From Pedosphaera sp. (GTDB taxonomy: Bacteria; Verrucomicrobiota; Verrucomicrobiia; Limisphaerales; SIBH01), in assembly GCA_009695285.1 (NCBI GenBank), contig SIBH01000006.1, forward strand, positions 1 to 38,081: a stretch of DNA of 38,081 bases, written 5' to 3'. The position numbers and the translations under genes were made by a program. Positions within the stretch are counted from its first letter, which is position 1, and each line of letters starts with the position of its first letter. A model generated the notes under the pieces. The model was not told the DNA's origin and did no database searches. It saw nothing but the letters and a program-made list of their open reading frames with translations. Positions 10,547 to 37,684 of the stretch are shown in pieces.

Positions 10547-10653
10547 AAGGTGGGGCGCGTCGCTCCGCGCGCGCCGTGACCCGCGAAAATCTATCATGCA
10601 TCATGCACATCTTCACTGGGCGGCGGCGCGCGCGGAGCGACGCGCCCCACCTT
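10547..10653. repeat. 30-bp perfect inverted repeat, 47-nt loop
   Basis: AAGGTGGGGCGCGTCGCTCCGCGCGCGCCG (10547-10576) is the exact reverse complement of CGGCGCGCGCGGAGCGACGCGCCCCACCTT (10624-10653). Confidence 0.95.
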
Positions 10654-10703: not shown

Positions 10704-11678
10704 ATGATGAGCATGAAGCTTTGGTGCTGGATCACCGCCGCCGTGTTGCTGCTCATCGGCTGCAACAACAACAGGTCTTCCGTCGTCATCTACATCGCGC
10801 AGGACGCGGAATTCGCCGGGCCGATCTTGCGTGAATTTGAAAAGGAAACCGGCATCAAGACGCGCGCGGTCTTCGACAGCGAGGCCGTGAAGACGGTCGG
10901 CCTGGCCAACCGACTGCTCGCGGAAAAAAACCACCCGCAGTGCGACGTGTTCTGGGGCAACGAGGAATTCCGCACCCGCCAGCTTGCCGCGCAAAACGTC
11001 TTCCGCGCCACGAACGGTTGGGCGGCGTTCGGCGCGCGGAGCCGGCGTGTCGTCGTGAACACGAACGTGGTGCGCGGTGCGTGGTCCGTGACCTCCCTCA
11101 CGCCCCACGCCCCACGCCCCACGCCCCAACCCATCGCCCCCGCCAGTCTGCTGGAACTCACAAACGCCGCCTGGCGTGGCAAGGTCGCGCTCGCCTATCC
11201 GATGTTCGGCACCACCTCCGCCCACTTCCACGCGCTGCGCCAGTTGTGGGGCGACGACGCCTGGCAAAACTGGTGCCGCGCGCTCGCCGCCAATCAGCCG
11301 TTTCTCGTCGATGGCAACTCCGCCGTCGTGAAATTTGTCGCGCGCGGCGACGCCTGGATCGGCTTCACGGATTCGGACGACATCGCCGCCGGGCAGCGCG
11401 AAGGCGCGCCGGTCGCCGCGCTGCCGCTCGCGGCGGAGAGTTTGCTGATCCCCAACACCGTCGCCGTCGTGCGCGGCGCGCCGCATCCCGAAGCCGCACA
11501 GCGCCTCTTCGATTACCTGCAAAGCCGCACGGTGGTGGAACGTCTCGTCAGTGCGCAGGCGCTGGAAAATATCTCGAAAGAGGAAATCACCGCGCCGGTC
11601 TTACGGCCGGATTGGGACGCCTTGATCCGCGATGCGGAATCCACCACCGCCCGGTTGAAGGAAATCTTCCTGCGATGA
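10704..11678 (+). CDS. Fe(3+)-type ABC transporter periplasmic binding protein (lipoprotein)
   Basis: Lipobox LLIGCNNN, VVIYIAQDAEFAGPILREFEKETGIKTRAVFDSE, DVFWGNEEFRT; FbpA/FutA-like. Confidence 0.88.
   Translation: MMSMKLWCWITAAVLLLIGCNNNRSSVVIYIAQDAEFAGPILREFEKETGIKTRAVFDSEAVKTVGLANRLLAEKNHPQCDVFWGNEEFRTRQLAAQNVFRATNGWAAFGARSRRVVVNTNVVRGAWSVTSLTPHAPRPTPQPIAPASLLELTNAAWRGKVALAYPMFGTTSAHFHALRQLWGDDAWQNWCRALAANQPFLVDGNSAVVKFVARGDAWIGFTDSDDIAAGQREGAPVAALPLAAESLLIPNTVAVVRGAPHPEAAQRLFDYLQSRTVVERLVSAQALENISKEEITAPVLRPDWDALIRDAESTTARLKEIFLR
11100..11127. repeat. (ACGCCCC)x4 heptanucleotide tandem repeat inside coding sequence
   Basis: Four perfect 7-bp units encoding TPHAPRPTP within the binding protein. 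Confidence 0.95.
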
Positions 11679-17422: not shown

Positions 17423-18145
17423 ATGAAGTATGCGGTCATAGCAGACATTCACTCCAACTTGGAAGCGCTGGAGGCGGTGCTCGCCGACACCAAGGAGCAA
17501 AAATGCACGCACTTTTGCTGCGTGGGCGATGTCGTGGGCTACAACGCCAATCCCAAGGAGTGTCTCGACATCATCCGCGGGATGAACATGCCCTGCGTGA
17601 AGGGCAACCACGACGAGTATTGCTCGAGCGAGGAGGATCTGGACGGGTTCAATCCGCACGCCGCCGAGGCCGTGAACTGGACGCGCAAGCAGCTCAGCAA
17701 GGAGGATCGGCAATGGCTGCGCGACATGAAATACGTCAAGTTGGTCGCCAGTTTCTCGATGGTTCACGCCACACTCGACGGCCCGCAACGCTGGGGCTAC
17801 GTCTTTGACAAGCTGGCTGCCGCCGCCAGCTTCACCTACCAGAACACGAGCGTCTGCTTCTTCGGCCACACGCACGTCCCGGTCGCGTTCATCCGCGATT
17901 CCGTGGTGCGCGGCGGCACCTACTCGAAGTTCAAGGTCGAGCCGGGCCGGAAATATTTCGTGAACGTCGGCAGCGTGGGCCAGTCGCGCGACAACGTGGC
18001 TAAGGCGACCTACGTGATCTACGACCTGGACGAAGGCTCCATCGAACTGCGCCGCCTCGATTACGACATTCCCAAGGCGCAGAAGAAAATCTTGGACGCC
18101 GGCCTGCCGCCGCGTCTAGCCGAGCGGCTGGCGTTTGGGAAATAG
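17423..18145 (+). CDS. calcineurin-like metallophosphoesterase
   Basis: MKYAVIADIHSNLEALEAVL, CVGDVVGYNANP, VKGNHDEY, CFFGHTHVPVAF. Confidence 0.95.
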   Translation: MKYAVIADIHSNLEALEAVLADTKEQKCTHFCCVGDVVGYNANPKECLDIIRGMNMPCVKGNHDEYCSSEEDLDGFNPHAAEAVNWTRKQLSKEDRQWLRDMKYVKLVASFSMVHATLDGPQRWGYVFDKLAAAASFTYQNTSVCFFGHTHVPVAFIRDSVVRGGTYSKFKVEPGRKYFVNVGSVGQSRDNVAKATYVIYDLDEGSIELRRLDYDIPKAQKKILDAGLPPRLAERLAFGK

Positions 18146-18147
18146 GC

Positions 18148-18207
18148 GGCGTGGGGCGTGGATGGAAGACGAACCCGCAGAATTTTTTCACGGACCACGG
18201 ACCACGG
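18148..18207. repeat. two short heptanucleotide arrays between genes: (GGCGTGG)2 and (CGGACCA)2
   Basis: 18148-18161 GGCGTGGGGCGTGG; 18191-18207 CGGACCACGGACCACGG. Confidence 0.85.
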
Positions 18208-18210
18208 CTT

Positions 18211-19245
18211 TTGAAAATTCTCATCCTCAAACCCAGCTCGCTCGGCGATGTCGTGCAGGCGCTGCCGGTGCTGCGACTGATCAAGCGCCGGCATCCGGCC
18301 AGCGAGATTTATTGGTGGATTGAGACCTCACTCGCGCCGCTGCTGGAAGGCGATCCAGACCTCGCCGGCGTCATTCCCTTTGACCGCAAACGCTGGGCCT
18401 CCCCGCCGCACTGGCCCGCGCTCTGGCGGAACCTGCGCTGGCTGCGCGCGCAGCAGTTCGACTGGGTGATCGACCTGCAAAGCCTCGCCCGCAGCGGCGC
18501 GTTCGCCTGGCTGGCCAATGGGAAATTTCTCATCGGCCTCGACGACGCGCGGGAAGGCGCGCGCGGCTATTACGATGTGATCGTTCCGCGCGCCTCGCGG
18601 CTGACCCATGCGGTGGACTGGTATCTCAGCGTGCTGCCGCCGCTCGGCGTGCCGGTGGAAAAAGATTTCGACTGGCTGCCGTCCCGTCCCGCCGTCGCGG
18701 CTTCCCTCGGGGAAAAATGGGGGGCACAATGGGACGGGACGCGCTGGATTCTGTTCCACCCCGGCGCGCGCTGGGACAACAAGTGCTGGCCGGTCGAACG
18801 GTTCGCGGAACTGGCCCGTGAACTTTCGCGGGACGGCTCGGTGCGGTTGGCGGTGCTCGGCGGCGCGGCTGACCGCGCGCTCGGCGCGGCCATCACCGCC
18901 GCCGCGCCCGGTGCCTGCCTGGATTTGACGGGCCAGACGACCCTGCCGGAAATGATCGAGTGGGTCCGTCTCGGCGAGCTGCTGATCACGAATGACACCG
19001 GACCGATGCACGTCGCCGCCGCGCTCGGCCGGCCGGTGGTCGGCATCTTCGGGCCGACCGAGCCGGCGCGCACCGGCCCGTACGGGCAGACCAAAAGCGC
19101 GCTGCAATCATTGCACCTGCCCTGCGTGCCCTGCCTGAAGAGCCATTGCGCCTACGAAAAGCCGATGGAGTGCCTGCGCGCCATCACGCCGGAACGCGTG
19201 CTGGCGGAAGTGCGGCGGCGGCTCGTGGTGCCCGCTCCTGAATAG
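18211..19245 (+). CDS. glycosyltransferase family 9 (ADP-heptose:LPS heptosyltransferase-like)
   Basis: LKILILKPSSLGDVVQALPVLRLIKRRHP, ILFHPGARWDNKCWPVERFAELAREL, LLITNDTGPMHVAAALGRPVVGIFGPTEPARTGPYG. TTG start at 18211 favoured over ATG at 18151. Confidence 0.92.
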   Translation: MKILILKPSSLGDVVQALPVLRLIKRRHPASEIYWWIETSLAPLLEGDPDLAGVIPFDRKRWASPPHWPALWRNLRWLRAQQFDWVIDLQSLARSGAFAWLANGKFLIGLDDAREGARGYYDVIVPRASRLTHAVDWYLSVLPPLGVPVEKDFDWLPSRPAVAASLGEKWGAQWDGTRWILFHPGARWDNKCWPVERFAELARELSRDGSVRLAVLGGAADRALGAAITAAAPGACLDLTGQTTLPEMIEWVRLGELLITNDTGPMHVAAALGRPVVGIFGPTEPARTGPYGQTKSALQSLHLPCVPCLKSHCAYEKPMECLRAITPERVLAEVRRRLVVPAPE

Positions 19246-22512: not shown

Positions 22513-25500
22513 ATGTCGAAAACCAACGCCGATCCATCCATCCGCCTGCGTGGCGTGCGCCACAACAACCTCAAGAATTTCGACCTCGATCTCCCGCTCG
22601 GCCGGCTCATCGTCATCACCGGTCTGAGCGGCTCCGGAAAAAGTTCGCTCGCCTTTGACACGCTTTATGCCGAAGGACAGCGCCGTTACATCGAAACCTT
22701 TTCTCCCTACGCCCGCCAGTTCTTCGACCGCATGGACAAGCCGCAGGTGGACCGCATCGACGGCATTCCGCCCGCTATCGCCATCGAGCAGCGGAACACC
22801 GTCAAGACCACGCGCTCCACCGTCGGCACCATGACGGAAATCTGCGACCACATGAAGCTGCTCTGGCCGCACCTCGCCCGGCTCCACTGCCGCCAATGCG
22901 GCCAACCCGTGCGCAAAGAGCCGCCCCAGGTCGTGTGGGAGAAGGTGAATGCGGAATGCGGAATGCAGAATGCGGAATGTTTGATCACGTTCGACCTGCC
23001 CCTTTCCGAAAAACTGTCGTTGCCGGAATCGCTCGGTCTCGTGGCCAAGCAAGGCTACCAGCGCCTGCTCGTCGGCTCCGAAATCATCCGCATCGACGAA
23101 GCCGCCACTCATTCCGCATTCCGCGCTCCGCACACCGCACTCACCATCATTCAAGACCGCCTCAAGCCCACCGCCCCCGCCCGCGCCCGTTTCATCGAAG
23201 CCTGCGAACAAGCCTACCACTACGGCCAGGGCAAACTCGCCATCCACCGTCCCGGCGTCACCCCTGTTCCGCACTTCGCACTCCGCACTCCGCATTTCTT
23301 CTCTGCGGGCTTCCACTGCGCCGCCTGCGATCTCGACTACCGCGAGCCGACCCCCGCGCTCTTCAGCTACAACCACCCCATCGGCGCGTGCCCGGCCTGC
23401 AAAGGTTTTGGCCGCGTCATCAGCATCGACTACCACCTCGCCCTCCCCGACCGCTCCAAGCCTCTCGCCGGCGGCTGCGTGAAACCGTGGCAGACCGGCC
23501 ACGGCCTCGAATCGCAAGCCGACCTGATGAAATTTTGCAAAAAGCGCAAAGTGCCCGTAGACATTCCGTTCGCCGCACTGCCGAAGGAAGCGCAGGACTG
23601 GGTCATCCACGGCGACCCCGATTACGGCCAAGACTCCGCCCACGAATGGCCCCGCGCCTGGTACGGGGTGAAAGGCTATTTCCGCTGGCTCGAGAGCAAG
23701 TCCTACAAGATGCACGTCCGCGTCCTCTTGAGCCGTTACCGCGCTTACACCACCTGCCCGGACTGCCACGGTCGGCGCTTCAACGCGGATTCGCTGCTGT
23801 ATCAATTTACGAATGACGATTTACGATTTACGAGTGCATCGCCTGAAACACCCACCGCTCATAAATCGTCATTCGTAAATCGTAAATTTACCCTCGCCGA
23901 CTTCTATCAACTCTCCATCGAGGACGCCCTGGCGGTCCTCGAACGGCTGTCGGCCCATTCCGCACTCCGCACTCCGCATTCCGCATTTGAGATCGTCCTC
24001 ACCGAAGTCCGCGCCCGGCTCCGCTACCTCGTCGAAGCCGGCCTCGGCTACCTCACGCTCGACCGGCCCACGCGCACGCTCTCCGGCGGCGAGACCAGCC
24101 GCGTCAACCTCACCACCTGCCTCGGCACCCGCCTCGTCAACACCCTCTTCGTCCTCGACGAACCGAGCGTCGGCCTGCATCCGCGCGACACGGCGAGGCT
24201 CGTCCGCATCCTGGAAAACCTCCGCGACGCCGGCAACACCGTCGTCGTCGTCGAGCACGAAGCCAGCATCATGCGTGCCGCCGATCAGATCGTCGATCTC
24301 GGCCCCGGCCAGGGCGAAGCCGGCGGGGAAATTATGTTCCAGGGCACCTTCGCCGATCTGCTCCAAAGGGATCGTTCCCTCACCGGCCAATACTTGAGCG
24401 GACGCAAACAGATTGAAGTGCCGGAGCGCCGCCCCGTTTCCCTCGTAGCAGCCGACGTGAGGAGGCTCACTTCAAATTCCGATGCGCTGGCCTTGAACGA
24501 AACGCCCATCCCCTACCAGGCAACGTCCGCCCTCACCCCAGCCCTCTCCCCCGGGGAGAGGGAGAAACACTCGCCGCCCATGTTTGATTCGGAAACCGCT
24601 TCGACCACTGAAAGCGCCAAACTCAGCCCACGACAGAAAGCGTCACTCCCTCTCTCCGGGGGAGAGGGCCGGGGTGAGGGCGAGCCAGGCAACTCAATCT
24701 TCGCCGTCCCTGTTCTCACCATCACTAACGCCGCCCTGCACAACCTCAAAAACCTCACTATCGAAATTCCCCTCCGCCGTTTCGTGTGCCTCACCGGCGT
24801 GAGCGGCTCCGGCAAGACCACCCTCATCCGCGACCTCCTCCTCCCGGCGCTTGAGGAAAATCTCCGATCAAAAATCTCTGATCAAAAATCCCCCGACCAG
24901 CCCGACTCCGACGAACGTGAAGAGGACACACCCCACGCCCCACGCCCCACGTCCTCCCTCACCGGCTGGCAACACCTCTCCCAAGTCGTCCTCGTCGATC
25001 AATCCCCGCTCGGCAAAACCCCGCGCTCCAATCCCGCCGTTTACATCGGCGCGTTCGAAGACCTCCGCGAACTTTTCGCCGCCACCGAACTGGCGAAGCA
25101 GCGCGGCCTCAACGCCAGCGCCTTCAGTTTCAACTCCGGCGTCGGCCAGTGCGAACTCTGCCGGGGCGCGGGCTTCGAGAAGATCGAGATGCAGTTTCTT
25201 AGCGACATTTTCATCCGCTGCCCCGACTGCCGGGGACGGCGCTATCGCGAGCATATTTTGGAAGTGAAACTCTGCGGTCAGCGGCCGGGGAAAGTGCTCA
25301 GTGCTCAGTACTCAGTGCCCAGTGTTCGGTCCACGGCCAACACAGCCCCACTGAGCACTGAGCACTTCCCCCAAAAGCACTGGAGCATCGCCGACCTGCT
25401 CGAAGCCACCGTGGATGACGCCCTGCAATTCCTCACCAGCTTCACCCACCTCCCCGCGGGACGCCGCGCCCAGTCGAGCTTGAAACTTTTGCAGGAGGTC

Positions 25501-28500
25501 GGCCTCGGCTACCTGCGTCTCGGCCAACCGATCAACACCCTCTCCGGCGGCGAGAGCCAGCGGTTGAAGTTGGTGAGTCATTTGGCCGCGTCTTCCAAAA
25601 ACTCCGTCGCAGTCGACGTGAGGAGGCTCACTTCATCTCCGACCAGCCTCGAAGAAAAAAATCAGAGCCTCGTCACCTCGGCTGCTACACTATTTTTATT
25701 CGACGAACCCACCACCGGCCTGCACTTCGACGACGTGCGCGGGCTGCTGAAAGTTTTCCAACGCCTGGTGGACGCCGGCCACTCGCTGCTGGTCATCGAG
25801 CACAATCTCGACGTCATCAAATCCTCGGACTGGGTGATCGACCTCGGTCCCGAAGCCGGCGCACGCGGCGGACAACTCGTCGCCGCCGGCACGCCGGAGG
25901 ACGTGGCGAAATGCGAGGCCAGTCACACGGGTCGGTTTCTTCGGGAAGTGCTCGGTGCCGGCAGAGAAAGTGAGAAAGCGGGCCGGTGGGAAATTAAGCG
26001 GAAAACGCGCACATCTCACTCTCTCACTTTCCCACCTGCCCACCTGCCCCCCCGCCCCCCCACCCCCCTCGAACTGGCGCGCACCCTTTGGAACTACCAT
26101 CGCGCCGCCAGCACGCCCCGCCCGGCCGACGTGATCATCGGCCTGGGCAGCTACGATCTGCGGGTCGCGCGGCATTGCGCCCAACTCTTCCAGCAGGGCC
26201 TTGCGCCGGTCCTGTTGTTCACTGGTGCCCAAGGCAATTTCACCCGTGGCAAATGGAGCAAATCCGAGGCGGAGATGTTCGCGGACGAAGCCGTGGCCGC
26301 CGGAGTCGCGCGCGAAAACATTCTGATCGAACCACGGGCCACGAACACCGGTGACAACCTCCGCTTCAGCCGCCAGTTGCTCGAGAGTCGCGGCCATCGC
26401 GCGGAAACAATACTTCTCGTGGCGAAGTCGCAGATGCTCCGCCGTTCGCTGGCCACCGCCGCCATCGTCTGGCCCAGAGTGACCGTCCTCGCCTCCGCCC
26501 CGCCGCATCCTTTCGAGGAACAGCCGACTCCCGATCATCCGCTGGACGATCTGATCAACGAGATGGTCGGCGACCTGCAGCGGATCATCGAATATCCGCG
26601 CCTTGGTTTTCAGGCGCCTCAGGAACTGCCCGGCGAAGTCCTCGCGGCCTACCACGAACTTATCGCCCGCGGCTACACCCGGCACCTCCTCTCCCCGCCG
26701 CCCCCGCGTCCCAGCGCTGACGCCATCTCCATCCGCGGCGCGCGCGAGCACAACCTGAAAAATCTCTCACTCGACATCCCGCGCGGCCAGTTCGTCGTCG
26801 TGACCGGCGTGAGCGGTTCGGGCAAAAGCACGCTCGCCTTCGATTTGATTTTCGCCGAGGGCCAGCGGCGCTTTCTCGACTCGATGAGCACCTACGCGCG
26901 GCAGTTCGTCGAGCAACTCGCCCGGCCCGAGGTCGATCTCATCACCGGCCTGCCGCCCACCGTCAGCATCGAACAGCGCACCACGCGCGGCGGCGGCAAA
27001 AGCACCGTCGCCACCGTCACCGAGGTCTATCATTTTCTGCGCCTGCTCTTCGCGCGACTGGGCACCCAGTTCTGTCCCGACTGCCAGAAGCCGGTCGAGG
27101 CGCAGACCCGCGACCAACTCGCGCGTGGTCTTCAGGCGGAAATGAAAATGCGCGGCGACCTGCTGCTGCTTGCGCCCGTGGTGCGCAACCGCAAGGGCTT
27201 CCACACCGATGTCGCCGAGTGGGCCGCCAAACATGGCCACAAAGAAATCCGCGCCGACGGGAAAATTTACGATACGGGCAAACCGTTTCGTCTCGACCGC
27301 TTCAAGGAGCACGACGTGGAAATCGTGACCGGCGTGCTGGACAAGAAGCGGAGCGCGGCTCTCCTGAGCCGCAGCGGTTCCGTCACGGCAAAAGCGTCAA
27401 AAAAATCCAGACGCGCTTTCGATTCTGCCGCTGCTGCGGGTCAGGAGACCCGCACTCCGCAGCAGCTCATCGACGACACACTCAAGCTCGGCCACGGCAC
27501 CCTCTTCGCGCTCGATAACCACGGAAAGCTTTCCATTCACTCCACCGAGCGCGCCTGTCCCGGCTGCGGACGCTCGTTCGAGCCGCTCGATCCGAAAATG
27601 TTTTCCTACAATTCCGCGCAAGGCTGGTGCCCGAAATGCCGCGGCTTCGGCGAGCTGTTTTATCTGCCGGACGCGGAGCGCGGCGCCAACGCCGACGCCA
27701 TCGAGGAAAGTTGGTGGGGCTGGCAGGAAGGCAAACGCGAAGCCTGCCCGGAATGTCACGGCGCGCGGCTGAATCCACTGGCGCGGGCGGTGCGTCTGCA
27801 AATTTCGGAGCGCAAACTGAAGATCACCAATCCCTCCATCGACGACTTCTCGCAGCTTGCCGTCGCCGCTGCCGCCGATCTTTTCCAACGGCTGAAATTC
27901 AAAGACCGCGCCGCCGCCGTCGCCCGCGACATCCTCCCGGAAATTGCCGAGCGCCTGAAATTTCTCCGCGAAGTCGGCCTCGGTTATTTGCAGCTCGGCC
28001 GCGGGGTCACGACGCTTTCCGGCGGGGAAGCGCAGCGCATCCGTCTCGCCGCGCAGCTCGGCTCCAACCTCAGCGGCGTCCTCTACGTCCTCGACGAGCC
28101 GACCATCGGCCTGCACGCGCGCGACAACGTGCAGCTCCTCGCCGCGCTCGAACAGCTTCAGGCGCGCGGTAACTCGCTCCTCGTCGTCGAGCACGACGAG
28201 GAAACGATGCGCCGCGCCGACTACATCATCGACCTCGGTCCCGGCGCGGGCGTGCATGGCGGCGAACTCGTCGCCGGCGGCACGCTGGCCGAGCTGATGC
28301 AGCACGAAAACTCCATCACCGGCCAATGTCTCCGCGCGCAGGAGGTGAAGAAGTATCCGTCGCGCGGAAAGCGGCGGCCCGTCGATTTGGAGTGCGGTGA
28401 CTTGTCACCGCCTTCCCTGCGGCGCGACTTGTCGCGCCGCGTTTCGCGACGAGTCGCGAAACAAAAAGGCGGTGACCAGTCGCCGCACTCCAAGCGCGCG

Positions 28501-29526
28501 CTCATCCTGCACGGCGCGTCCGTCAACAACCTCAAAGACCTCACCGTCGCCTTCCCGCTGAACCGCCTCGTCGTCGTCACCGGCGTGAGCGGTTCCGGCA
28601 AGAGCACGCTGATTCGCGAATGTCTTTTCCCCGCACTGCAAACAGCCTTGAAGAGAAAAACTCGGAACTCGAAACCCCAAACTCAGAAAACTCTCACCGG
28701 CCACCAATCCCTCAAGGCCGTCTATGAAGTTGATCAATCTCCCATCGGCCGCACCCCGCGCTCCACGCCCGCCACCTACGTCGGGTTCTTCGATGAAATT
28801 CGCCGGCTCTACGCCGACACGCCGGAAGCGCGGATGCGCGGCTACACGACGAGCCGGTTTTCCTTCAACAGCGCGCAGGGCCGCTGCCCGGCTTGCGAAG
28901 GCGCGGGCAACATCAAGCTGGAGATGAATTTTCTGCCGCCCGCGTTCGTGCGCTGCGAAACCTGCGGCGGCTCGCGCTTCAACCGCGAGACGCTCGACAT
29001 CGAGCATCGCGGCAAAAACATCGCGCAGGCGCTGGATCTTTCCGTCGAGGAGGCTGTCGATTTTTTCGGTCCGTTCCAGAAGATCAGGCGGCCGCTCGAA
29101 GCGTTGCGCGATACCGGGCTTGGCTACCTGAAACTCGGCCAGACCAGCCCGACCCTGAGCGGCGGCGAGGCGCAGCGCGTGAAACTCGTCACACATCTGC
29201 TCACGGGTCTCAAGGAGCAACTGCCGCTCCCAAACGAAAAGCAGAAGGGCAATCTGTTCATTCTCGAAGAGCCGACCATCGGCCTGCACATCTCCGACGT
29301 GCGCCGACTGGTGGAGATGCTGCAACGGTTGGTCGATGCCGGCCACTCGGTGATCGTGATCGAACACAATCTCGACCTGATCGCGGAAGCCGACTGGGTG
29401 ATCGACCTCGGCCCGGAAGCGGGCGAGGCGGGCGGGGAAGTGGTGGTGGCGGGAACGCCGGAGGAAGTGGCGCGAGTGAAGCGCTCGCACACGGGGAAAT
29501 TTTTGCGCGGGCAGTTCCGGTTGTGA
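22513..29526 (+). CDS. uvrA: tandem UvrA-YdcF(DUF218)-UvrA fusion, 2337 aa
   Basis: UvrA copy 1 (~22513-25965): [81 protein letters not shown], zinc-finger CxxC pairs. YdcF-like (~26080-26650): [15 protein letters not shown]...[53 protein letters not shown]. UvrA copy 2 (~26710-29526): [61 protein letters not shown]. Confidence 0.93.
22947..22979. repeat. heptanucleotide array (GAATGCG)~4.7 in frame in uvrA
   Basis: GAATGCG GAATGCG GAATGCA GAATGCG GAATG; encodes [11 protein letters not shown]. Confidence 0.95.
23110..23142. repeat. heptanucleotide array, CATTCCG family (opposite orientation)
   Basis: CATTCCG CATTCCG CGCTCCG CACACCG CACTC; encodes [11 protein letters not shown]. Confidence 0.93.
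23267..23294. repeat. heptanucleotide array, CTCCGCA family
   Basis: TTCCGCA CTTCGCA CTCCGCA CTCCGCA; encodes HFALRTPHF. Confidence 0.93.
23805..23888. repeat. AT-rich heptamer-based inverted repeat in frame in uvrA
   Basis: TTTACGAATGACGATTTA (23806-23823) and its exact reverse complement TAAATCGTCATTCGTAAA (23862-23879); units TTACGAA TGACGAT TTACGAT TTACGAG. Confidence 0.95.
23957..23988. repeat. heptanucleotide array, ATTCCGC/ACTCCGC
   Basis: ATTCCGC ACTCCGC ACTCCGC ATTCCGC ATTT; encodes [11 protein letters not shown]. Confidence 0.94.
24445..24473. repeat. half-copy of a 25-29 bp dispersed repeat (GTAGCAGCCGACGTGAGGAGGCTCACTTC)
   Basis: Near-identical to 25606-25634 (GTCGCAGTCGACGTGAGGAGGCTCACTTC); encodes [10 protein letters not shown]. 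Confidence 0.92.
24530..24680. repeat. 34-bp inverted repeat, REP-like, in frame between UvrA-1 ATPase halves
   Basis: CCCTCACCCCAGCCCTCTCCCCCGGGGAGAGGGA (24530-24563) vs TCCCTCTCTCCGGGGGAGAGGGCCGGGGTGAGGG (24647-24680), 2 mismatches. Confidence 0.95.
24857..24955. repeat. 14-bp (2x7) array AAAAATCTCTGATC followed by ACGCCCC heptamer array
   Basis: 24857-24897 AAAATCTCCGATC/AAAAATCTCTGATC/AAAAATCCCCCGAC; 24928-24955 ACACCCC ACGCCCC ACGCCCC ACGTCCT. Confidence 0.88.
25294..25365. repeat. heptamer-based inverted repeat (GTGCTCA family)
   Basis: GTGCTCAGTGCTCAGTACTCAGTG (from 25294) and CACTGAGCACTGAGCAC (25349-25365), 16-bp exact arm. Confidence 0.94.
25606..25688. repeat. 25-bp imperfect inverted repeat, full copy of the 24445 element
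   Basis: GTCGCAGTCGACGTGAGGAGGCTCA (25606-) vs AGAGCCTCGTCACCTCGGCTGCTAC (25664-25688); encodes [10 protein letters not shown]. Confidence 0.9.
25962..26070. repeat. purine-rich / pyrimidine-rich repeat with C7-G-C7-A-C6 tract at the UvrA-1/YdcF junction
   Basis: AGAGAAAGTGAGAAAGCGG ... TCTCACTCTCTCACTTTCCCACCTGCCCACCTGCCCCCCCGCCCCCCCACCCCCCTC. Confidence 0.85.
27348..27460. repeat. large imperfect inverted repeat in frame in UvrA copy 2
   Basis: GCGGAGCGCGGCTCTCCTGAGCCGCAGCGG (27348-27377) vs CCGCTGCTGCGGGTCAGGAGACCCGCACTCCGC (27428-27460); each arm also forms its own hairpin (GCGGCTC-TCCT-GAGCCGC; GCGGGTC-AGGA-GACCCGC). Confidence 0.9.
28389..28491. repeat. cloverleaf-like hairpin element in frame in UvrA copy 2
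   Basis: Outer 26-bp arms 28389-28414 / 28466-28491 (2 mismatches); inner perfect hairpins GCGGCGCGAC-TT-GTCGCGCCGC (28419-28440) and GTTTCGCGAC-GA-GTCGCGAAAC (28441-28462). Confidence 0.95.
28660..28694. repeat. degenerate heptanucleotide array ACTCGGA/ACTCGAA/ACCCCAA/ACTCAGA/AAACTCT
   Basis: Five successive 7-bp units; encodes [13 protein letters not shown] between UvrA-2 Walker A and downstream sequence. Confidence 0.85.
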
Positions 29527-29912: not shown

Positions 29913-31289
29913 TCAGCGATTGGCGAACGAAGGGAACACGTCCCCCTCCGGCCATTCCTTCACCGCGTTGAACGCGCGATGCAACGCGCCGTCAATCTCA
30001 CCATCGGGAAGTTTCTTGTCCTCGGACCGCTGATTGAAAAGCGCCGCCCAGCTCAACCCGTCCGCCCGGCGCACGAGCAATGTGTTCGTGCCGAGCAGGC
30101 TGCCGTTGTGCCAGTAATTCGCCTTCCCACCTGTGCCCACGGGACGAACCATCCAGCCGCAACCGTAGTAGGCGTCGGCAATTTTTCCGTCAGGCCGGCG
30201 CGCGACGGGCGCGGTTGGTGGCGCATACATCCTGGCCATGGTTTCCGGTTTTAACAGCGGGCTGCGCGCCGGATCATCCAGTGCCGCCGCGAATCGCGCG
30301 AGATCCACCGCCGAAGCGATCCATCCACCGTGCGCCTCCATCGCTTCGAGATGCCAGCAGCCGTAAGGCTGTGGAACGCGCGCCGCGCCCGGAAAAACGC
30401 TCGCGCCCGTCGCGTCGTCCGACGTGTAATAGCGGACTTCGCCGACCGCCTGCTGACCGTCCAGCGTGGCTCCGATTCTCATGCGCGTGATGCCGGCGAG
30501 TTTGAGGATTTTTTCGCGCACAAATTGTTCGTAGCCCAGGCCGGAAATTTTCCCGATGATCCGGCCCAGCACGCAGTAGCCGAAGTTGGAATAGACATGG
30601 CGCTCGCCCGGCTCGAAATCCAGCGGTTGGCCAAGCATGTAACGGATGATCGTCTCCGGGTCCGCCGGGCCGGGCAGGGCGGCGGCCTTGGAAATCTCCT
30701 TCGAGCGAAACATCGGATCACCGCTGAGGTCGCGATCCCAGCCGGCGGTGTGCTGGAGCAAGTGGAGGATGGTGATCTGGTCCAGCCGCGCGTCCACCTT
30801 CTGCCCGGCGGCGGGCAACGGCCCGAGCCGCAAGATGGGAAAGGCGCGGTCGCTCAACTGAAGTTTTCCCTCCTCGACCAGTTTCAGCACCGCCACCGCC
30901 GTGAACGATTTGGTGATGCTAGCAATGCGGAAGAGCGAATCGGCCTTCACTGGAATCTTCGCAGCGCGGTCCGCCCAGCCGTAACCGCGTGCGTAAACCA
31001 GCCGCCGGTTCTTCACCACCGCCAGCGCGCCGCCGGGAATTTTCCGCGCCGCCAGGAACGACTCCATCTCGCGGTCAAATCTCGCCAGCGGCTGCTCTGC
31101 ACGTTCGGCCGCGTGCAGCCATGCATCCAACAACAACGCCGCCGCGCCGCACCCGCCGAGAAACCGGCGGCGCGTCCAGACTGGAAAATTTTTGGCGCGC
31201 GAAATTATGCGGGATGATGGGAAGGCCGGTGGAAGTTTGTCGAGCCAAAGGGCGGGCGAAAACAGGGCTGTCTTCGTAGCGTCGGGCAT
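29913..31289 (-). CDS. serine hydrolase, class C beta-lactamase-like, with Tat-like signal
   Basis: TRRRFLGGCGAAALLLDAW; ASITKSFTAVAVLKLVEEGKL (SxxK); YSNFGYCVLGRII (YxN); WHNGSLLGTNTLLV. Confidence 0.92.
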   Translation of the reverse strand: MPDATKTALFSPALWLDKLPPAFPSSRIISRAKNFPVWTRRRFLGGCGAAALLLDAWLHAAERAEQPLARFDREMESFLAARKIPGGALAVVKNRRLVYARGYGWADRAAKIPVKADSLFRIASITKSFTAVAVLKLVEEGKLQLSDRAFPILRLGPLPAAGQKVDARLDQITILHLLQHTAGWDRDLSGDPMFRSKEISKAAALPGPADPETIIRYMLGQPLDFEPGERHVYSNFGYCVLGRIIGKISGLGYEQFVREKILKLAGITRMRIGATLDGQQAVGEVRYYTSDDATGASVFPGAARVPQPYGCWHLEAMEAHGGWIASAVDLARFAAALDDPARSPLLKPETMARMYAPPTAPVARRPDGKIADAYYGCGWMVRPVGTGGKANYWHNGSLLGTNTLLVRRADGLSWAALFNQRSEDKKLPDGEIDGALHRAFNAVKEWPEGDVFPSFANR

Positions 31290-31395
31290 CCCGCCCGGCG
31301 GGAATTGCGTTCCGCTTTGGAAACGCGCTTAAAATGGCCGCACGCCTCGCGATACTCATACGGTTCTTTCCGGGCGGCGGAACGCCCGACGCTAC
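31276..31395. repeat. intergenic inverted repeat between serine hydrolase and glgB
   Basis: GTAGCGTCGGGC (31276-31287) and GCCCGACGCTAC (31384-31395), with further internal complementary CCGCCCGG/GGGCGG stretches. Confidence 0.88.
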
Positions 31396-31448
31396 CTGCC
31401 ACACTTTTTCATGTCCCTTCCCACCCGTTCTCGCCAGAGTTCGCGCGC

Positions 31449-33647
31449 ATGATTCTGACCAGGCCCGAACTGGAGAGCCTCACCCAGGCCAAACATCGCT
31501 CGCCGCACCAACTCCTCGGCATGCACCCGCTCGACGACGGCTCCGGCGTCGTGGTCCGCGCCTTCCTGCCCAACGCCGCCGCAGTGGAAATCGCGCCGAC
31601 CCACGAAAAGAAGAAGCCGAAGATCAAACTCGAACGCCTCGACGACTCTGGCCTATACGAGGGCGTCAGTAGCGGCGCGCAGCATGTCTATGCCTACGAC
31701 CTGATCATCACCGATTATCAGGGCCACGTCCGCCGCACCCGCGACGCCTACTCCTTCCTGCCAACGCTCGGCGCAACCGACCTCCATCTTTTCGGCCAGG
31801 GCGACGAGCGGCGCATCTACGAAAAACTCGGCGCGCAGCTCCGCGTCATCGACGGCGTGCCCGGCACCAGCTTCGCCGTCTGGGCGCCGAACGCGCAACG
31901 GGTCAGCGTCGTCGGCGAGTTCAACGGCTGGGACGGGCGTTATCACGCGCTGCGGCTGCTCGGCGCGTCCGGCGTCTGGGAAATTTTCATCCCAGGCGTC
32001 GGCGAAGGCGCGCTCTACAAATACGAGATCAAGGACGCGCACGGCAGCATCTTGCTCAAGACCGATCCCTACGGTTTCTTCTTCGAGCCGGCCCCCAAGA
32101 ACGCCTCGATTGTCTGGGACAACCGCAAATTCAAATGGACCGACGCCGACTGGATGAAGCAGCGCGGCCAGCAGGATCCGTTGCGTGCGCGCATGAGCAT
32201 CTATGAAATCCATCTCGGCTCGTGGATGAAAAAGTCCGCCACCGAGTCGCTCAGCTACCGCGACATCGCCGCGCCGCTCGTCGAATACGTCAAGCGGCTC
32301 GGCTTCACGCACGTCGAATTTCTCCCGGTGTCCGAACACGCCTTCTATCCGTCATGGGGCTATCAGGTCACCGGGTTTTATTCGCCGACCTGCCGCTACG
32401 GGACGCCGGATGACTTTCAATTCCTCGTCAACGCCCTGCATGAGGCGGGCATCGGCGTGTTCATCGACTGGGTGCCGGCGCATTTTCCGCGCGACGAATG
32501 GGCGCTAGCCCGCTTCGACGGCACGGCGCTTTACGAGCACGAGGATCCGCGCAAAGGCGCGCACCAAGACTGGGGCACGCTCATCTTCAACTTCGGACGG
32601 CACGAGGTTAAAAATTTTCTCAACGCCAACGCCATCTTCTGGTGCGAACGCTTTCACATCGACGGCCTGCGCGTCGATGCCGTGGCCTCGATGCTCTACC
32701 TCGACTATTCACGCAAGGCCGGCGAATGGGTTCCGAACCAGTACGGCGGGCGCGAACACATCGAGGCCGTGGAGTTCTTGAAATCGTTCAACCACCTCGT
32801 CCACACCGAATGTCCCGGCGTCGTGACCATCGCCGAAGAATCGACCGCCTGGCCGCTCGTCACCCGTCCACCCTATCTCGGCGGCCTCGGCTTCAGCTTC
32901 AAGTGGAACATGGGCTGGATGCACGACACGCTAAATTTTTTCGGCCGCGAAACGGTGCATCGCAAATATCACCAGAACGATCTCACCTTCGCGATGCTCT
33001 ATCATCACAACGAGAATTTCGTCCTACCCCTATCGCACGACGAAGTGGTGCATGGCAAACACTCGTTGATCGGGCGGATGCCCGGCGACGACTGGCAGGC
33101 CTTCGCAAATCTCCGCACCCTGCTCGGCTACCAATGGTGTTTCCCCGGCAAGAAACTGCTCTTCATGGGCTGCGAGTTCGGCCAGCGCGGCGAGTGGAAC
33201 GCCAACGCCGCGCTCGACTGGTGGCTGCTCGACCAAGGCCCCTTCCATCGTGGCCTGCAACAATTCATTGCCGATCTGAACCTGCTTTACCAGGCCGAGC
33301 CGGCGCTGTGGGACGGTGATTACGCGGTGGAAGGATTTTTCTGGTTGGACTGCACCGATCACCAGAACAGCGTCATGTCCTTCGTCCGCCAGAACCGGGC
33401 CGGCACCAACCATCTCCTCGTCATCCTGAATCTTACGCCGGTTTTGCGGACGAACTACCGCCTCGGCCTGCCGCTTGGTGGTTTCTGGCGCGAAGTCCTG
33501 AACAGCGACGCGGTCGCGTATGGCGGCAGCAACCAGGGCAACCTCGGAGGCGTCACCGCCCAAGAACATCCACTGCACAATCAATCATACTCCGCCGAGT
33601 TCACGATCCCACCGCTGAACGTCTCCGTCTTCCGTCACGAGGGATGA
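31449..33647 (+). CDS. glgB: 1,4-alpha-glucan branching enzyme
   Basis: [92 protein letters not shown]-like, [23 protein letters not shown]. Confidence 0.97.
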   Translation: [732 protein letters not shown]

Positions 33648-33979: not shown

Positions 33980-36900
33980 ATGAAAAATTTCGCGGCGTTT
34001 CTGTGGATTAGTCTGGCCGTCTTCGGCGTCACGTCGTGGTGCTCCGGCGCGGAGCGGTCGTGGCATGACGGGAAAGGATTCAAATGCGCGGAACTGGGGG
34101 CGCCGGGGGGAGATCAGGCCGGTTTCACATTGCTGCCGCCGAAGGACACCGGCCTGGCCTTCACCAATTCGATCGACGAGCAGGAGGGGGAGGCCAACCG
34201 CGTTTTGCTCAATGGTTCGGGCGTGGCGGCGGGAGACTTTGATGGTGACGGCCGGCCGGATTTGTTTCTGTGCAGCCTGGAGGGGCGCAACACGCTCTAC
34301 AAAAATCTCGGGAACTGGAAGTTCAAGGATGTCACAGCCGCCGCCGGTCTGGTCTGCACGAACCGCCACACCCGGGGCGCGGTCTTCGCGGATGTGAACG
34401 CCGACGGCGCGCTCGATCTGCTGGTGACGGTGTCAGGCCGGGGGGTGCTGTGTTTCTTGAATGACGGTCACGGGAAGTTCACGGACGCGACGGCGGCGGC
34501 GGGCACGGCCAGCAAGTTCGGCAGTGTGACGCTGGCGCTGGCCGACGTGGATGGCAACGGCACGCTGGACTTGTACGTGGCCAATTATCGCACGGACAAC
34601 ATCCGCGACCAGGGCCAGGTGGCCATCTCGATGGTGCGCGGCCGGATGACGATTCAGCCGTCGCTCCGGGACCGGTTGGTCATCATCAACGGCGAGGTCT
34701 ATGAGTACGGTGATCCCGACACGCTCTATCTCAACGACGGCCAGGGGCATTTCAAACCGAGGTCGTGGACGGACGGAACGTTTCTCGACGAGGCCGGCCA
34801 ACCGCTGGCCGAGGTGCCGCGCGACTGGGGACTCTCGGCCACGTTCCGCGATCTGAACGGCGACGGCTTCCCCGATTTGTACGTTTGCAACGACTACTGG
34901 ACGCCGGACCGCATCTGGATGAACGACGGCCAGGGCCGTTTCCGCGCCATCGACCGACTGGCGCTCCGGCACATGAGCGGCAGCTCAATGGGCGTGGATT
35001 TTGCGGATCTGAACCGCACCGGGCACATGGACTTTCTGGTGGCGGACATGTTGAGCCGCGACCATCGGCTGCGCAAACGTCAGTCCTTCGCCCAGCGGCC
35101 GGCCGCCGCGCTGGTCGGGACTTTCGATGACCGGCCGCAGGTGTTGCGCAACACGCTCATGCAAAATCGCGGCGACGGCACCTTCGCGGACATTGCCGAC
35201 CTCGCGGGGCTTGCCGCCTCCGACTGGGCGTGGCAGCCGGTGTTTCTGGACGTGGACCTGGACGGTTACGAGGACGTGCTCATCACCACCGGCCACCGCC
35301 GCGACGTGCAGGACCTCGACGCGGCGGCGCGCATCAAAGCCGGCGAGCATCCCTGGCCGGAGGGCGACGGCCTGATGGAATATCGCGGGAAAATGATGAC
35401 CGTGCAGGAGGCGCTGCTCACCGAGAACATGCTCAACGCCCGACAGTATCCCCGACTCGATTCACCCATCGTCGCCTTTCGCAACCAGGGTCAATACCGC
35501 TTTCAGGAAACCACGGCCGCGTGGGGCTTCAACACCCTCGGCGTGCACCATGGGCTCGCCCTCGCAGACTTCGATGGTGACGGCGACCTCGACGTGGTGG
35601 TGAACAACCTCGGCGCACCCGCCAGTGTTTACCGCAACAACACCAGCGCGCCGCGCGTGGCGGTGCGCCTGACGGGCAACAAGCCCAACACTCAGGGTAT
35701 CGGCGCGAAAATCAAACTGCTGGGCGGCGCGGTGCCAATGCAGAGCCAGGAAGTCGTCAGCGGCGGCCGCTACCTCTCCGGCTCGGATCCCATGCTGGTG
35801 TTTGCGGCGGGAAAATCCACCGGGGACATGACCCTCGAAGTGACCTGGCGCAACGGCCGCGTCAGCCGCCTCGGCGGCGTGGCCGCGAACCGCGTTTATG
35901 AAATTGAAGAAGCGGCGGCGGCGGACGCGCCGCCCGCGCGGCCCGGCGGGATGATCCCGCTGTTCAAGGATGTCAGCGGCCTGATCGATCACACGCATTT
36001 TGATGAGAGCTTTGATGACTACGCGCACCAGCCGCTGCTCCCCTTCAAGTTGAGCCAGCTCGGGCCGGCGGTGGCGTGGCACGATCTCGATGGCGACGGC
36101 CACGATGATTTGATCATTGGCAGCGGACGCGGCGGCGCGCTTTCATTTTTTCGTGGAGACGGCAAGGGTGCATTCGTCAAAATGGAGCCGGCCGCCGGCC
36201 TGGCCCTGCCAGATGACGCGACCGGCCTGGTCGGCTGGACGCCGGAGCCGGGGCGGCGCGCGCTGCTCGTCGGTCTCGCCAGCTACGAGGAGACCAATCA
36301 TCCCGCCGTGGTGCAGGTCGATTTCACCGGCGGCGTGCTCAAGGTGGGCGGCACCTTGCCGGAGAACGGCTCGAGCGCCGGCCCGCTGGCCGTGGCGGAC
36401 ATGGACGGAGACGGCCGGCTCGATTTGTTCGTCGGCGGGCGCGTCCTGCCGGGGCGTTTTCCCGAAGCCGCCTCGTCGCGGATTTTCCGCCACGACGGAA
36501 AGCGTTTGCAGCCCGATCTGGAAAATTCCCGCGCGCTGGAAAAGGCCGGCCTCGTCAGCGGCGCGGTCTGGAGCGATCTGGACGGCGATGGCTTCCCCGA
36601 TTTGATCCTCGCCTGCCAATGGGGGCCGGTGCGCGTCTTCAAAAATCAGGCGGGCCGACTGCGCGAGATCACCGCCGAACTGGGCCTGGACAAATTTACC
36701 GGCTGGTGGAACAGCGTGACGACCGGCGATCTCGACAGCGACGGCCGGCCGGACCTCATCGCCGGCAACTGGGGATTGAACTGCGCCTGGCCCGCCTCGG
36801 AGGCCAATCCGGCCCGGATTTTTTACGGAAATTTTGGCCCAGGCGAAACGCTTGACCTGATCGAGGCCGGGACCGACCCGGCCACCGGGATCGTCGCCCC

Positions 36901-37684
36901 CCTGCGGATGCTCAATTCCCTCGCCGCCTCGATGCCGTCCTTGCGCGCGCGCTTTGCCACGCACCAGGCCTACAGCGAGGCCAGCGTGGCGGACGTGATC
37001 GGGCCGCCGCTGGCCCGGGCGCGCGAAGCCCGCGCCAGCACGCTGGCCTCGATGGTGTTTCTCAATCGCGGCACCAATTTCAGCGCGCTGGAACTGCCGC
37101 TGGAGGCGCAGGTCGCGCCGGTCTTCTCAGTGAACGTGGCCGACGTGGACGGCGACGGGCACGAGGATGTTTTTCTCAGCCAGAATTTTTTCGCCACGCG
37201 CCCAGAAATGCCGCGCCTCGACGCCGGTCGCGGCCTGTGGCTGCGCGGTGATGGCACCGGGAAATTGCGCGCGCTGTCGGGCCAAGAATCCGGCGTGAAA
37301 ATTTACGGCGAACAGCGCGGCGCGGCCCTGGCGGATTTTAACGAGGACGGCCGGATCGATCTGGTCGTCACACAGAATGGCGCGCCGACGCGGCTATTTC
37401 AAAATGTCACCGCCCGACCCGGCCTGCGCGTGCGTCTGGCCGGTCCGCCCGGAAATCCTGACGGCGTTGGAGCCGTGCTGCGTTTGCAATCCGGCCCGCG
37501 CCCCGGCCCCGCCCGCGAAATCCACGCCGGCTCCGGCTATTGGTCACAGGACGGCGCGGTGCCGGTCATGGGCGGCACCGAGCGCCCGACCCAGATCGTG
37601 ATCCGCTGGCCGGGCGGTCAAATCACCACCACGGAAATCCCTGCCGGCGCCCGCGAGATCACCGCGCCTGCGCCCAAGCCCTGA
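33980..37684 (+). CDS. FG-GAP/VCBS repeat protein with ASPIC/UnbV domains (CRTAC1-like), secreted
   Basis: Signal MKNFAAFLWISLAVFGVTSWCSGA; repeated GDFDGDGRPDLF, DLDGDGHDDLIIG, DFNEDGRIDLVV; ASPIC VRLTGNKPNTQGIGAKIKLLGG and VRLAGPPGNPDGVGAVLRLQSG. Confidence 0.93.
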   Translation: MKNFAAFLWISLAVFGVTSWCSGAERSWHDGKGFKCAELGAPGGDQAGFTLLPPKDTGLAFTNSIDEQEGEANRVLLNGSGVAAGDFDGDGRPDLFLCSLEGRNTLYKNLGNWKFKDVTAAAGLVCTNRHTRGAVFADVNADGALDLLVTVSGRGVLCFLNDGHGKFTDATAAAGTASKFGSVTLALADVDGNGTLDLYVANYRTDNIRDQGQVAISMVRGRMTIQPSLRDRLVIINGEVYEYGDPDTLYLNDGQGHFKPRSWTDGTFLDEAGQPLAEVPRDWGLSATFRDLNGDGFPDLYVCNDYWTPDRIWMNDGQGRFRAIDRLALRHMSGSSMGVDFADLNRTGHMDFLVADMLSRDHRLRKRQSFAQRPAAALVGTFDDRPQVLRNTLMQNRGDGTFADIADLAGLAASDWAWQPVFLDVDLDGYEDVLITTGHRRDVQDLDAAARIKAGEHPWPEGDGLMEYRGKMMTVQEALLTENMLNARQYPRLDSPIVAFRNQGQYRFQETTAAWGFNTLGVHHGLALADFDGDGDLDVVVNNLGAPASVYRNNTSAPRVAVRLTGNKPNTQGIGAKIKLLGGAVPMQSQEVVSGGRYLSGSDPMLVFAAGKSTGDMTLEVTWRNGRVSRLGGVAANRVYEIEEAAAADAPPARPGGMIPLFKDVSGLIDHTHFDESFDDYAHQPLLPFKLSQLGPAVAWHDLDGDGHDDLIIGSGRGGALSFFRGDGKGAFVKMEPAAGLALPDDATGLVGWTPEPGRRALLVGLASYEETNHPAVVQVDFTGGVLKVGGTLPENGSSAGPLAVADMDGDGRLDLFVGGRVLPGRFPEAASSRIFRHDGKRLQPDLENSRALEKAGLVSGAVWSDLDGDGFPDLILACQWGPVRVFKNQAGRLREITAELGLDKFTGWWNSVTTGDLDSDGRPDLIAGNWGLNCAWPASEANPARIFYGNFGPGETLDLIEAGTDPATGIVAPLRMLNSLAASMPSLRARFATHQAYSEASVADVIGPPLARAREARASTLASMVFLNRGTNFSALELPLEAQVAPVFSVNVADVDGDGHEDVFLSQNFFATRPEMPRLDAGRGLWLRGDGTGKLRALSGQESGVKIYGEQRGAALADFNEDGRIDLVVTQNGAPTRLFQNVTARPGLRVRLAGPPGNPDGVGAVLRLQSGPRPGPAREIHAGSGYWSQDGAVPVMGGTERPTQIVIRWPGGQITTTEIPAGAREITAPAPKP

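Follow-up and report, generated by a model that had tools for sequence, protein, structure and literature searches.

The window analyzed here, a 38,081-nucleotide stretch of DNA, is contig C94. The source genome is a fragmented MAG of the Verrucomicrobiota (2.15 Mb, 57% complete) whose named relatives are Limisphaerales/Pedosphaera-type MAGs. The relatives used for comparison are draft MAGs, none closer than the order. A gene for a solute-binding protein in the window has a tandem heptamer array inside its coding sequence, with the following features.

10704-11678, + strand: ABC-transporter solute-binding protein of 324 aa with a lipobox-like LLIGC and an FbpA/FutA-type fold (PF13531/PF13416/PF13343 matches; AF2 model with pLDDT 91; FbpA as the top fold match).
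11066-11091, + strand: 5' arm of a hairpin, consisting of the degenerate heptamers CGTGGTG CGCGGTG CGTGGTC CGTGA; inverted repeat with 11098-11123; DNA fold z -4.2; TRF period 7 at 11066-11090.
11079-11129, + strand: 17 extra residues (126-142) compared with short-loop orthologues, from the alignment of 110 orthologues.
11098-11128, + strand: 3' arm of the hairpin together with the tandem heptamer array (ACGCCCC)4, encoding TPHAPRPTP.

The initial annotation had placed (ACGCCCC)4 at 11100-11127 within this gene and read its peptide as TPHAPRPTP, and both were confirmed; perfect period 7 extends slightly further, over 11099-11128. The sequence GTGCGTGGTCCGTGA upstream of the array is present; rather than standing apart as a curiosity, it forms the 5' arm of a hairpin in which it pairs imperfectly with the array. 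The arms of this hairpin (11066-11123; arms 11066-11091 and 11098-11123) are mismatched in places and keep the 7-bp register (shuffle p ~0.01), and the stretch that contains it folds at z = -4.2 as DNA compared with shuffles. The arm pairing has decayed. The window element is a 58-bp heptamer hairpin, and other copies have just the unit in common with it. Inspection of the sequence found no GTAG or CGTC tag in the element at 11066-11128, and an Rfam search of the window gave no match. A perfect 30-bp inverted repeat (AAGGTGGGGCGCGTCGCTCCGCGCGCGCCG; loop with (ATCATGC)2; fold z -9.7) lies at 10547-10653, in the gap that separates a vWA-domain gene from the gene for the solute-binding protein, and may be terminator-like or a dispersed element.

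The host protein had been called iron-binding. The structure model and fold match confirmed a periplasmic-binding fold of the FbpA type, but iron is a putative ligand only, as the FbpA iron tyrosine pair is not conserved and the YY of 7w3w aligns to TDSDD. This motif (11370-11381 in the window, residues 223-226) is conserved in the family at the FbpA iron-tyrosine position. Because it replaces the iron tyrosines, the family probably does not bind ferric iron as its ligand in the way that FbpA does. NCBIfam matches of the protein to aminoethylphosphonate and thiamine binders were far under the cut-off.

The array encodes part of a loop at residues ~120-140, which the AF2 model renders without secondary structure at pLDDT 63-72, compared with ~95 elsewhere. 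Counted from the NTN strand to LTNxxWRGK, 78 of the 110 orthologues have 28 residues here versus 45 in the window protein. It was therefore correct that VVVNTN and LLELTN normally lie close together, and the description of a heptamer insertion between them is right relative to most orthologues. The loop (residues 125-143) is 7 to 30 residues longer in 23 of the 110 orthologues, and at other internal positions of the alignment extra sequence is found in at most 6 rows each. On the tree, the long-loop state requires 8 changes, 4 of them forced by well-supported branches. Strong inverted repeats (score of ≥11) were present in 11 of 17 distinct long loops versus 0 of 72 short loops (Fisher 3e-10). 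Homologues with an equivalent loop but no DNA repeat would have refuted the initial annotation, and this was half the case: long loops equivalent to that of the window protein do exist in orthologues, but most of them hold another repeat element and a few are free of a detectable repeat. Neither a hairpin nor a heptamer was found in 6 of the 17 distinct inserts (L087, L094, L080, L066, L069, and L139), indicating that the loop also varies by other routes.

The loop inserts belong to unrelated families, including heptamer hairpins (L031; L114/L116), CCTCCCAGGAGGGG (L034), CCCTCTCCCCCG (L027), GGAGCGCCGAGC (L012), and the GTAG-tagged GTAGCCGCCGAGG (L064 and L073), among others. The three inserts that we tested were all multicopy in their own genomes, with 25 BLAST matches in G016, 82 in G186, and 48 in G050, counting both strands. 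Heptamer arrays are found at this same loop in four lineages (the window, G016, L114/L116, and G181). Judged from a rough tree and the dissimilarity of the insert sequences, these four lineages would have acquired their arrays independently. The loop thus appears to be a recurrent acceptor site, an old landing site filled with differing repeats in relatives. In G181, the loop of the orthologue (L224) contains tandem heptamers of AACTTCS and GCCCTTC. This orthologue reads in two frames, with the frame break downstream of both arrays and outside them.

The significant fold of the window hairpin (z -4.2) and the recurrence of hairpins at this loop among other lineages could reflect a regulatory element of the transporter operon, acting in mRNA or as single-stranded DNA by pausing, stability, or protein binding. 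However, approximately 80% of the orthologues have no hairpin at the loop, the elements are unlike each other in sequence and length and occur in unrelated genes too, and the arm pairing of the window copy is no longer intact; we consider such a role highly unlikely. We also considered that ribosomes might bypass the insert or that it might be spliced out; this is disfavored, as the inserts of the orthologues examined are in frame without stops, except in G181 and G026, where the gene reads in two frames.

The initial annotation had related the array to others in the window, at 24928 in uvrA and at 18148 between genes, and this kinship was borne out. The features concerned, with the further repeats of the uvrA-like gene, are as follows.

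18148-18207, no strand assigned: two intergenic heptamer stretches, GGCGTGGGGCGTGG ... CACGGACCACGGACCACGG, inverted relative to each other, from sequence; fold z -0.8.
22513-29526, + strand: uvrA-like ORF of 2337 aa in which a DUF218 segment separates two UvrA halves; numerous heptamer arrays and palindromes.
22941-23148, + strand: heptamer-armed inverted repeat in uvrA with GAATGCG / CATTCCG arms; 39-nt arms, 82% complementary.
23804-23888, + strand: heptamer-armed hairpin in uvrA, ATTTACG / TAAATCG; 31-nt arms; z -5.5; loop common to the inserts of relatives.
24445-24469, + strand: GTAG-tagged REP-like arm GTAGCAGCCGACGTGAGGAGGCTC in uvrA, from sequence; same motif in inserts of relatives.
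24528-24682, + strand: palindrome CTCACCCC...GGGGTGAG in uvrA; 44-nt arms, 89% complementary; loop 646-733 also insert-bearing in relatives.
24927-24951, + strand: second ACGCCCC-type array, in uvrA, encoding TPHAPRPTS.
25287-25372, + strand: heptamer-armed hairpin in uvrA, AGTGCTC / CACTGAG; 23-nt arms, 96%; z -5.6; loop 927-949 filled in relatives too.
27348-27460, + strand: palindrome with 28-nt arms in the second UvrA half, 89% complementary.
28387-28493, + strand: palindrome with 28-nt arms in the second UvrA half, 93% complementary.

The uvrA array CACACCCCACGCCCCACGCCCCACG is built from the same heptamer, with two perfect ACGCCCC units at 24935-24948. The reverse-type GGCGTGGGGCGTGG (near 18148) and CACGGACCACGGACCACGG (18189-18207) were likewise confirmed; the intergenic pair (18130-18215) folds no better than shuffles (z -0.8). 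The peptide TPHAPRPT is indeed common to UvrA and the solute-binding protein, but it has no meaning at the protein level. As 7 and 3 share no factor, a 7-nt unit passes through all three frames, and an ACGCCCC array in sense orientation is read as the cyclic heptapeptide TPHAPRP whichever frame is used. A protein-level kinship of the two peptides was rejected for this reason. The palindromes at 24528-24682, 27348-27460, and 28387-28493 are longer and nonheptameric. As with the loop of the solute-binding protein, the UvrA loops at window residues 148, 249, 435, 646, 927, and 1030 hold different elements in different relatives. One UvrA insert (L197, in G036) belongs to the GGAGCGCCGAGC family, as does the insert in the solute-binding protein loop of G186.

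The excess of heptamer arrays extends over the genome. Exact period-7 runs numbered 9 in the window versus 0.07 expected from an order-3 Markov model, 36 versus 1.0 in the first 347 kb sampled, and 49 versus 3.7 in 746 kb taken in stretches from the 2.15-Mb genome. In 80 related loci there were 43 versus 1.7 expected. With 9 against 0.07 and 49 against 3.7, the runs of the window are not due to chance. Periods 4, 5, 8, 10, and 11 were close to expectation, and periods 6 and 9 were raised in a codon-like manner; enrichment of these two periods is common in coding repeats. Most exact runs are 17 to 31 bp long, with a maximum of 38 bp. The sequence ACGCCCCACGCCCC occurs 20 times in the 2.15-Mb genome versus 0 to 2 times per genome in 37 relatives. 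An inverted partner no more than 220 bp away (score of ≥11) accompanies 35% of the period-7 arrays compared with 1.7% of control positions, and at most ACGCCCC sites a clear partner is missing. Among the sampled arrays, 33 of 51 are internal to coding-like ORFs, a status that is ORF and GC3 based and approximate except for the nine proteins confirmed by profiles, namely, RibD, UvrC, an MsbA-like exporter, MurC (twice), HemC, DnaK, a DinG-like helicase, CarB, and RimO. In each of the 24 ORFs with internal arrays in the source genome, the sense strand is the C-rich one (p 1e-7). Since the bias was not replicated in the 80 related loci (10 versus 8), we do not claim it as a general rule for arrays in coding sequence.

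For HemC, the loop at residues 119-133 is of the ACGCCCC type in the source genome and of the AACTCTC type in G024 (hemC of L055 523-1560 and of L248), with its length unchanged. The term "insertion" is therefore not always apt, because the HemC array overwrites the loop without lengthening it, and a loop can be overwritten as well as lengthened. The replacement of HemC loops at constant length, together with the six nonrepetitive long loops of the solute-binding protein, would also fit ordinary hypervariable, low-complexity surface loops in which relaxed selection and local slippage generate repeats without any dispersed element; period-7 slippage could be a property of the polymerase, a hypothesis cited in PMC4692102. 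Against this stand the inserts that are multicopy families in their own genomes and the ACGCCCC unit, which recurs at 13 sites across the portion of the genome that was sampled and is nearly absent from relatives. We therefore regard local hypervariability as an unlikely explanation.

Intragenic repeats in bacteria are usually read as phase switches. A unit that is not a multiple of 3, present in four perfect copies, would suit a phase-variable contingency locus in which 7-bp slippage shifts the frame and turns the binding protein off and on, and the array-bearing orthologue L224 does read in two frames downstream of its arrays. The frame break of L224, however, lies outside the array, and the arrays are short (mostly 17 to 31 bp and never above 38 bp). 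Sister arrays moreover occupy hemC, carB, murC, ribD, and dnaK, conserved single-copy enzyme genes in which switching would be costly; a change of ±7 would break these genes, which argues against switching as a general role. The analysis yielded no support for the view in the initial annotation that the array is the best slippage candidate of the window. A contingency function is thus very unlikely, and the loop repeat is probably tolerated repeat DNA rather than a switch. That the source genome is a fragmented MAG, 57% complete, might suggest an artifact of assembly or binning, but the length of the arrays is below that of a short read, and the heptamer pattern was found again in 24 of 80 independent loci and in many further genomes, so that we give this explanation almost no weight.

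Several known repeat systems resemble these elements in part. Rickettsia palindromic elements (Ogata 2000/2002), as described in PMC10969869 and PMC6649704, are in-frame palindromes in many unrelated protein genes, where the protein tolerates them, and also have copies elsewhere in the genome. Here, too, inverted repeats lie in frame in conserved genes (those for the solute-binding protein and UvrA), are multicopy, and are also found outside the gene. Unlike the Rickettsia elements, they have no conserved family sequence of ~100 to 150 bp, with the unit alone shared by other copies; their arms are 7-bp tandem arrays, the elements are about 60 to 200 bp long and belong to Verrucomicrobiota, and one loop is reused by unrelated elements. 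In cyanobacteria, Xanthomonas, and Beggiatoaceae, heptameric repeats are genome-wide, have a lineage-specific unit and inverted arrangements, and are reported to be mainly intergenic and underrepresented in coding regions (PMC4692102, PMC4679880). Our genome shares with the cyanobacterial and Xanthomonas repeats the excess of period 7 over neighboring periods, but its arrays are not mainly intergenic, 33 of 51 lying in coding-like ORFs. The P6b element of the Nostoc trnL intron has hairpin stems of 7-nt repeats that were replaced independently across lineages at one tolerant position (PMC4476775); there the site belongs to the RNA of a group I intron, whereas the present one is protein-coding DNA. 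In the open-licence literature we found no description of in-frame, protein-coding hairpins with heptamer arms, nor any of unrelated elements that reuse a single loop throughout an order.

A further known system consists of GTAG/CGTC REPs inside genes, reported among others for the two uvrA genes of Opitutus terrae, a verrucomicrobium (Di Nocera et al. 2013, PMC3733652). GTAG-tagged copies likewise occur in the uvrA of the window and in the loops of relatives, and mobilization of the window element as a REP by a RAYT transposase would be in keeping with the GTAG start of the L064 and L073 inserts and of one uvrA arm, with the Y1-transposase genes detected in 9 of 10 genomes searched, and with the intragenic REPs of the O. 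terrae genes. The window insert, however, is a heptamer array without a GTAG or CGTC tag, and the sole Y1 match in the source genome (57% complete) is partial with an internal stop. Insertion sites of intragenic REPs are also reported to be mostly different (PMC3733652), whereas here inserts recur in a single loop from lineage to lineage. A candidate transposase family exists for tagged REPs (PMC3733652) and none for heptamers; in the draft MAGs examined, we identified no element boundary, target duplication, or transposase for the heptamer class. An origin of the window element as a RAYT-mobilized REP is, like phase variation, very unlikely.

We consider it quite likely that the sequence in the solute-binding protein gene represents a class of heptamer-armed repeat elements that are spread over the genome and tolerated in permissive protein loops. 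They would behave as Rickettsia palindromic elements or intragenic REPs do, but with heptamers of the cyanobacterial type. This reading draws on the observed enrichment of period 7, arrangement in hairpins, specificity for the loop and its recurrent use, presence of the inserts in multiple copies, and location in conserved genes. Short elements with 7-bp units, often hairpins with heptamer-array arms, occur throughout the genome, and the copy described here sits in frame within a solvent-exposed loop, where it would be tolerated because the loop is unimportant for the fold. It would be translated as a Pro-rich linker peptide and be selectively neutral. In other Limisphaerales, the same loop is filled by unrelated palindromic or heptamer elements that are multicopy there, and several UvrA loops and one HemC loop behave likewise. 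The sequence of steps would be insertion or overwriting, in-frame survival through selection, and later decay.

The elements may arise by 7-nt slippage inside the arms combined with inverted copying via fold-back template switching. Unit order is mirrored across arms at L157 14737-14814, with the order AG-AA-GG-AG in each of two arms, and at uvrA 23804-23888, where the variant unit AATGACG is mirrored with a one-unit offset; the mirroring suggests that one arm arose as an inverted copy of the other. Units that are uniform within an arm, as at L057 1942-1967 and in the four of the window, point to later slippage. It is conceivable, although we hold it to be rather doubtful, that a self-propagating, transposase-independent 7-nt process of slippage and fold-back copying continually makes and spreads heptamer-armed hairpins in Limisphaerales, overwriting permissive loops of essential proteins. 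If so, genome-specific heptapeptides are taking the place of linker sequences throughout the proteome.

Tolerance of the loop explains the placement of these repeats better than a switch does, with unrelated elements reusing one loop in different lineages, and the inserts provide a natural map of protein sites that tolerate insertion. They also caution that shared repeat peptides are not proof of homology, and comparing them is a way to ask what sets the period at 7 and what keeps hairpin arms matched.

Some further observations concern the array-rich regions themselves. Eight exact heptamer arrays lie on contig C80 of the genome (L057, 10.6 kb). One of them, of the unit CCCTCCG, is the longest found at 38 bp, and the contig also has a mirrored hairpin at 1885-1965. 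The UvrA halves and the DUF218 segment form a single open frame in the window and separate ORFs in most relatives; the frame of 2337 aa could be a fusion or the result of a missing stop in GC-rich DNA. Downstream of it are genes for a beta-lactamase-fold (serine hydrolase) protein (29913-31289), a GlgB-type branching enzyme (31305-33647), and a large FG-GAP/ASPIC-UnbV protein (33980-37684).
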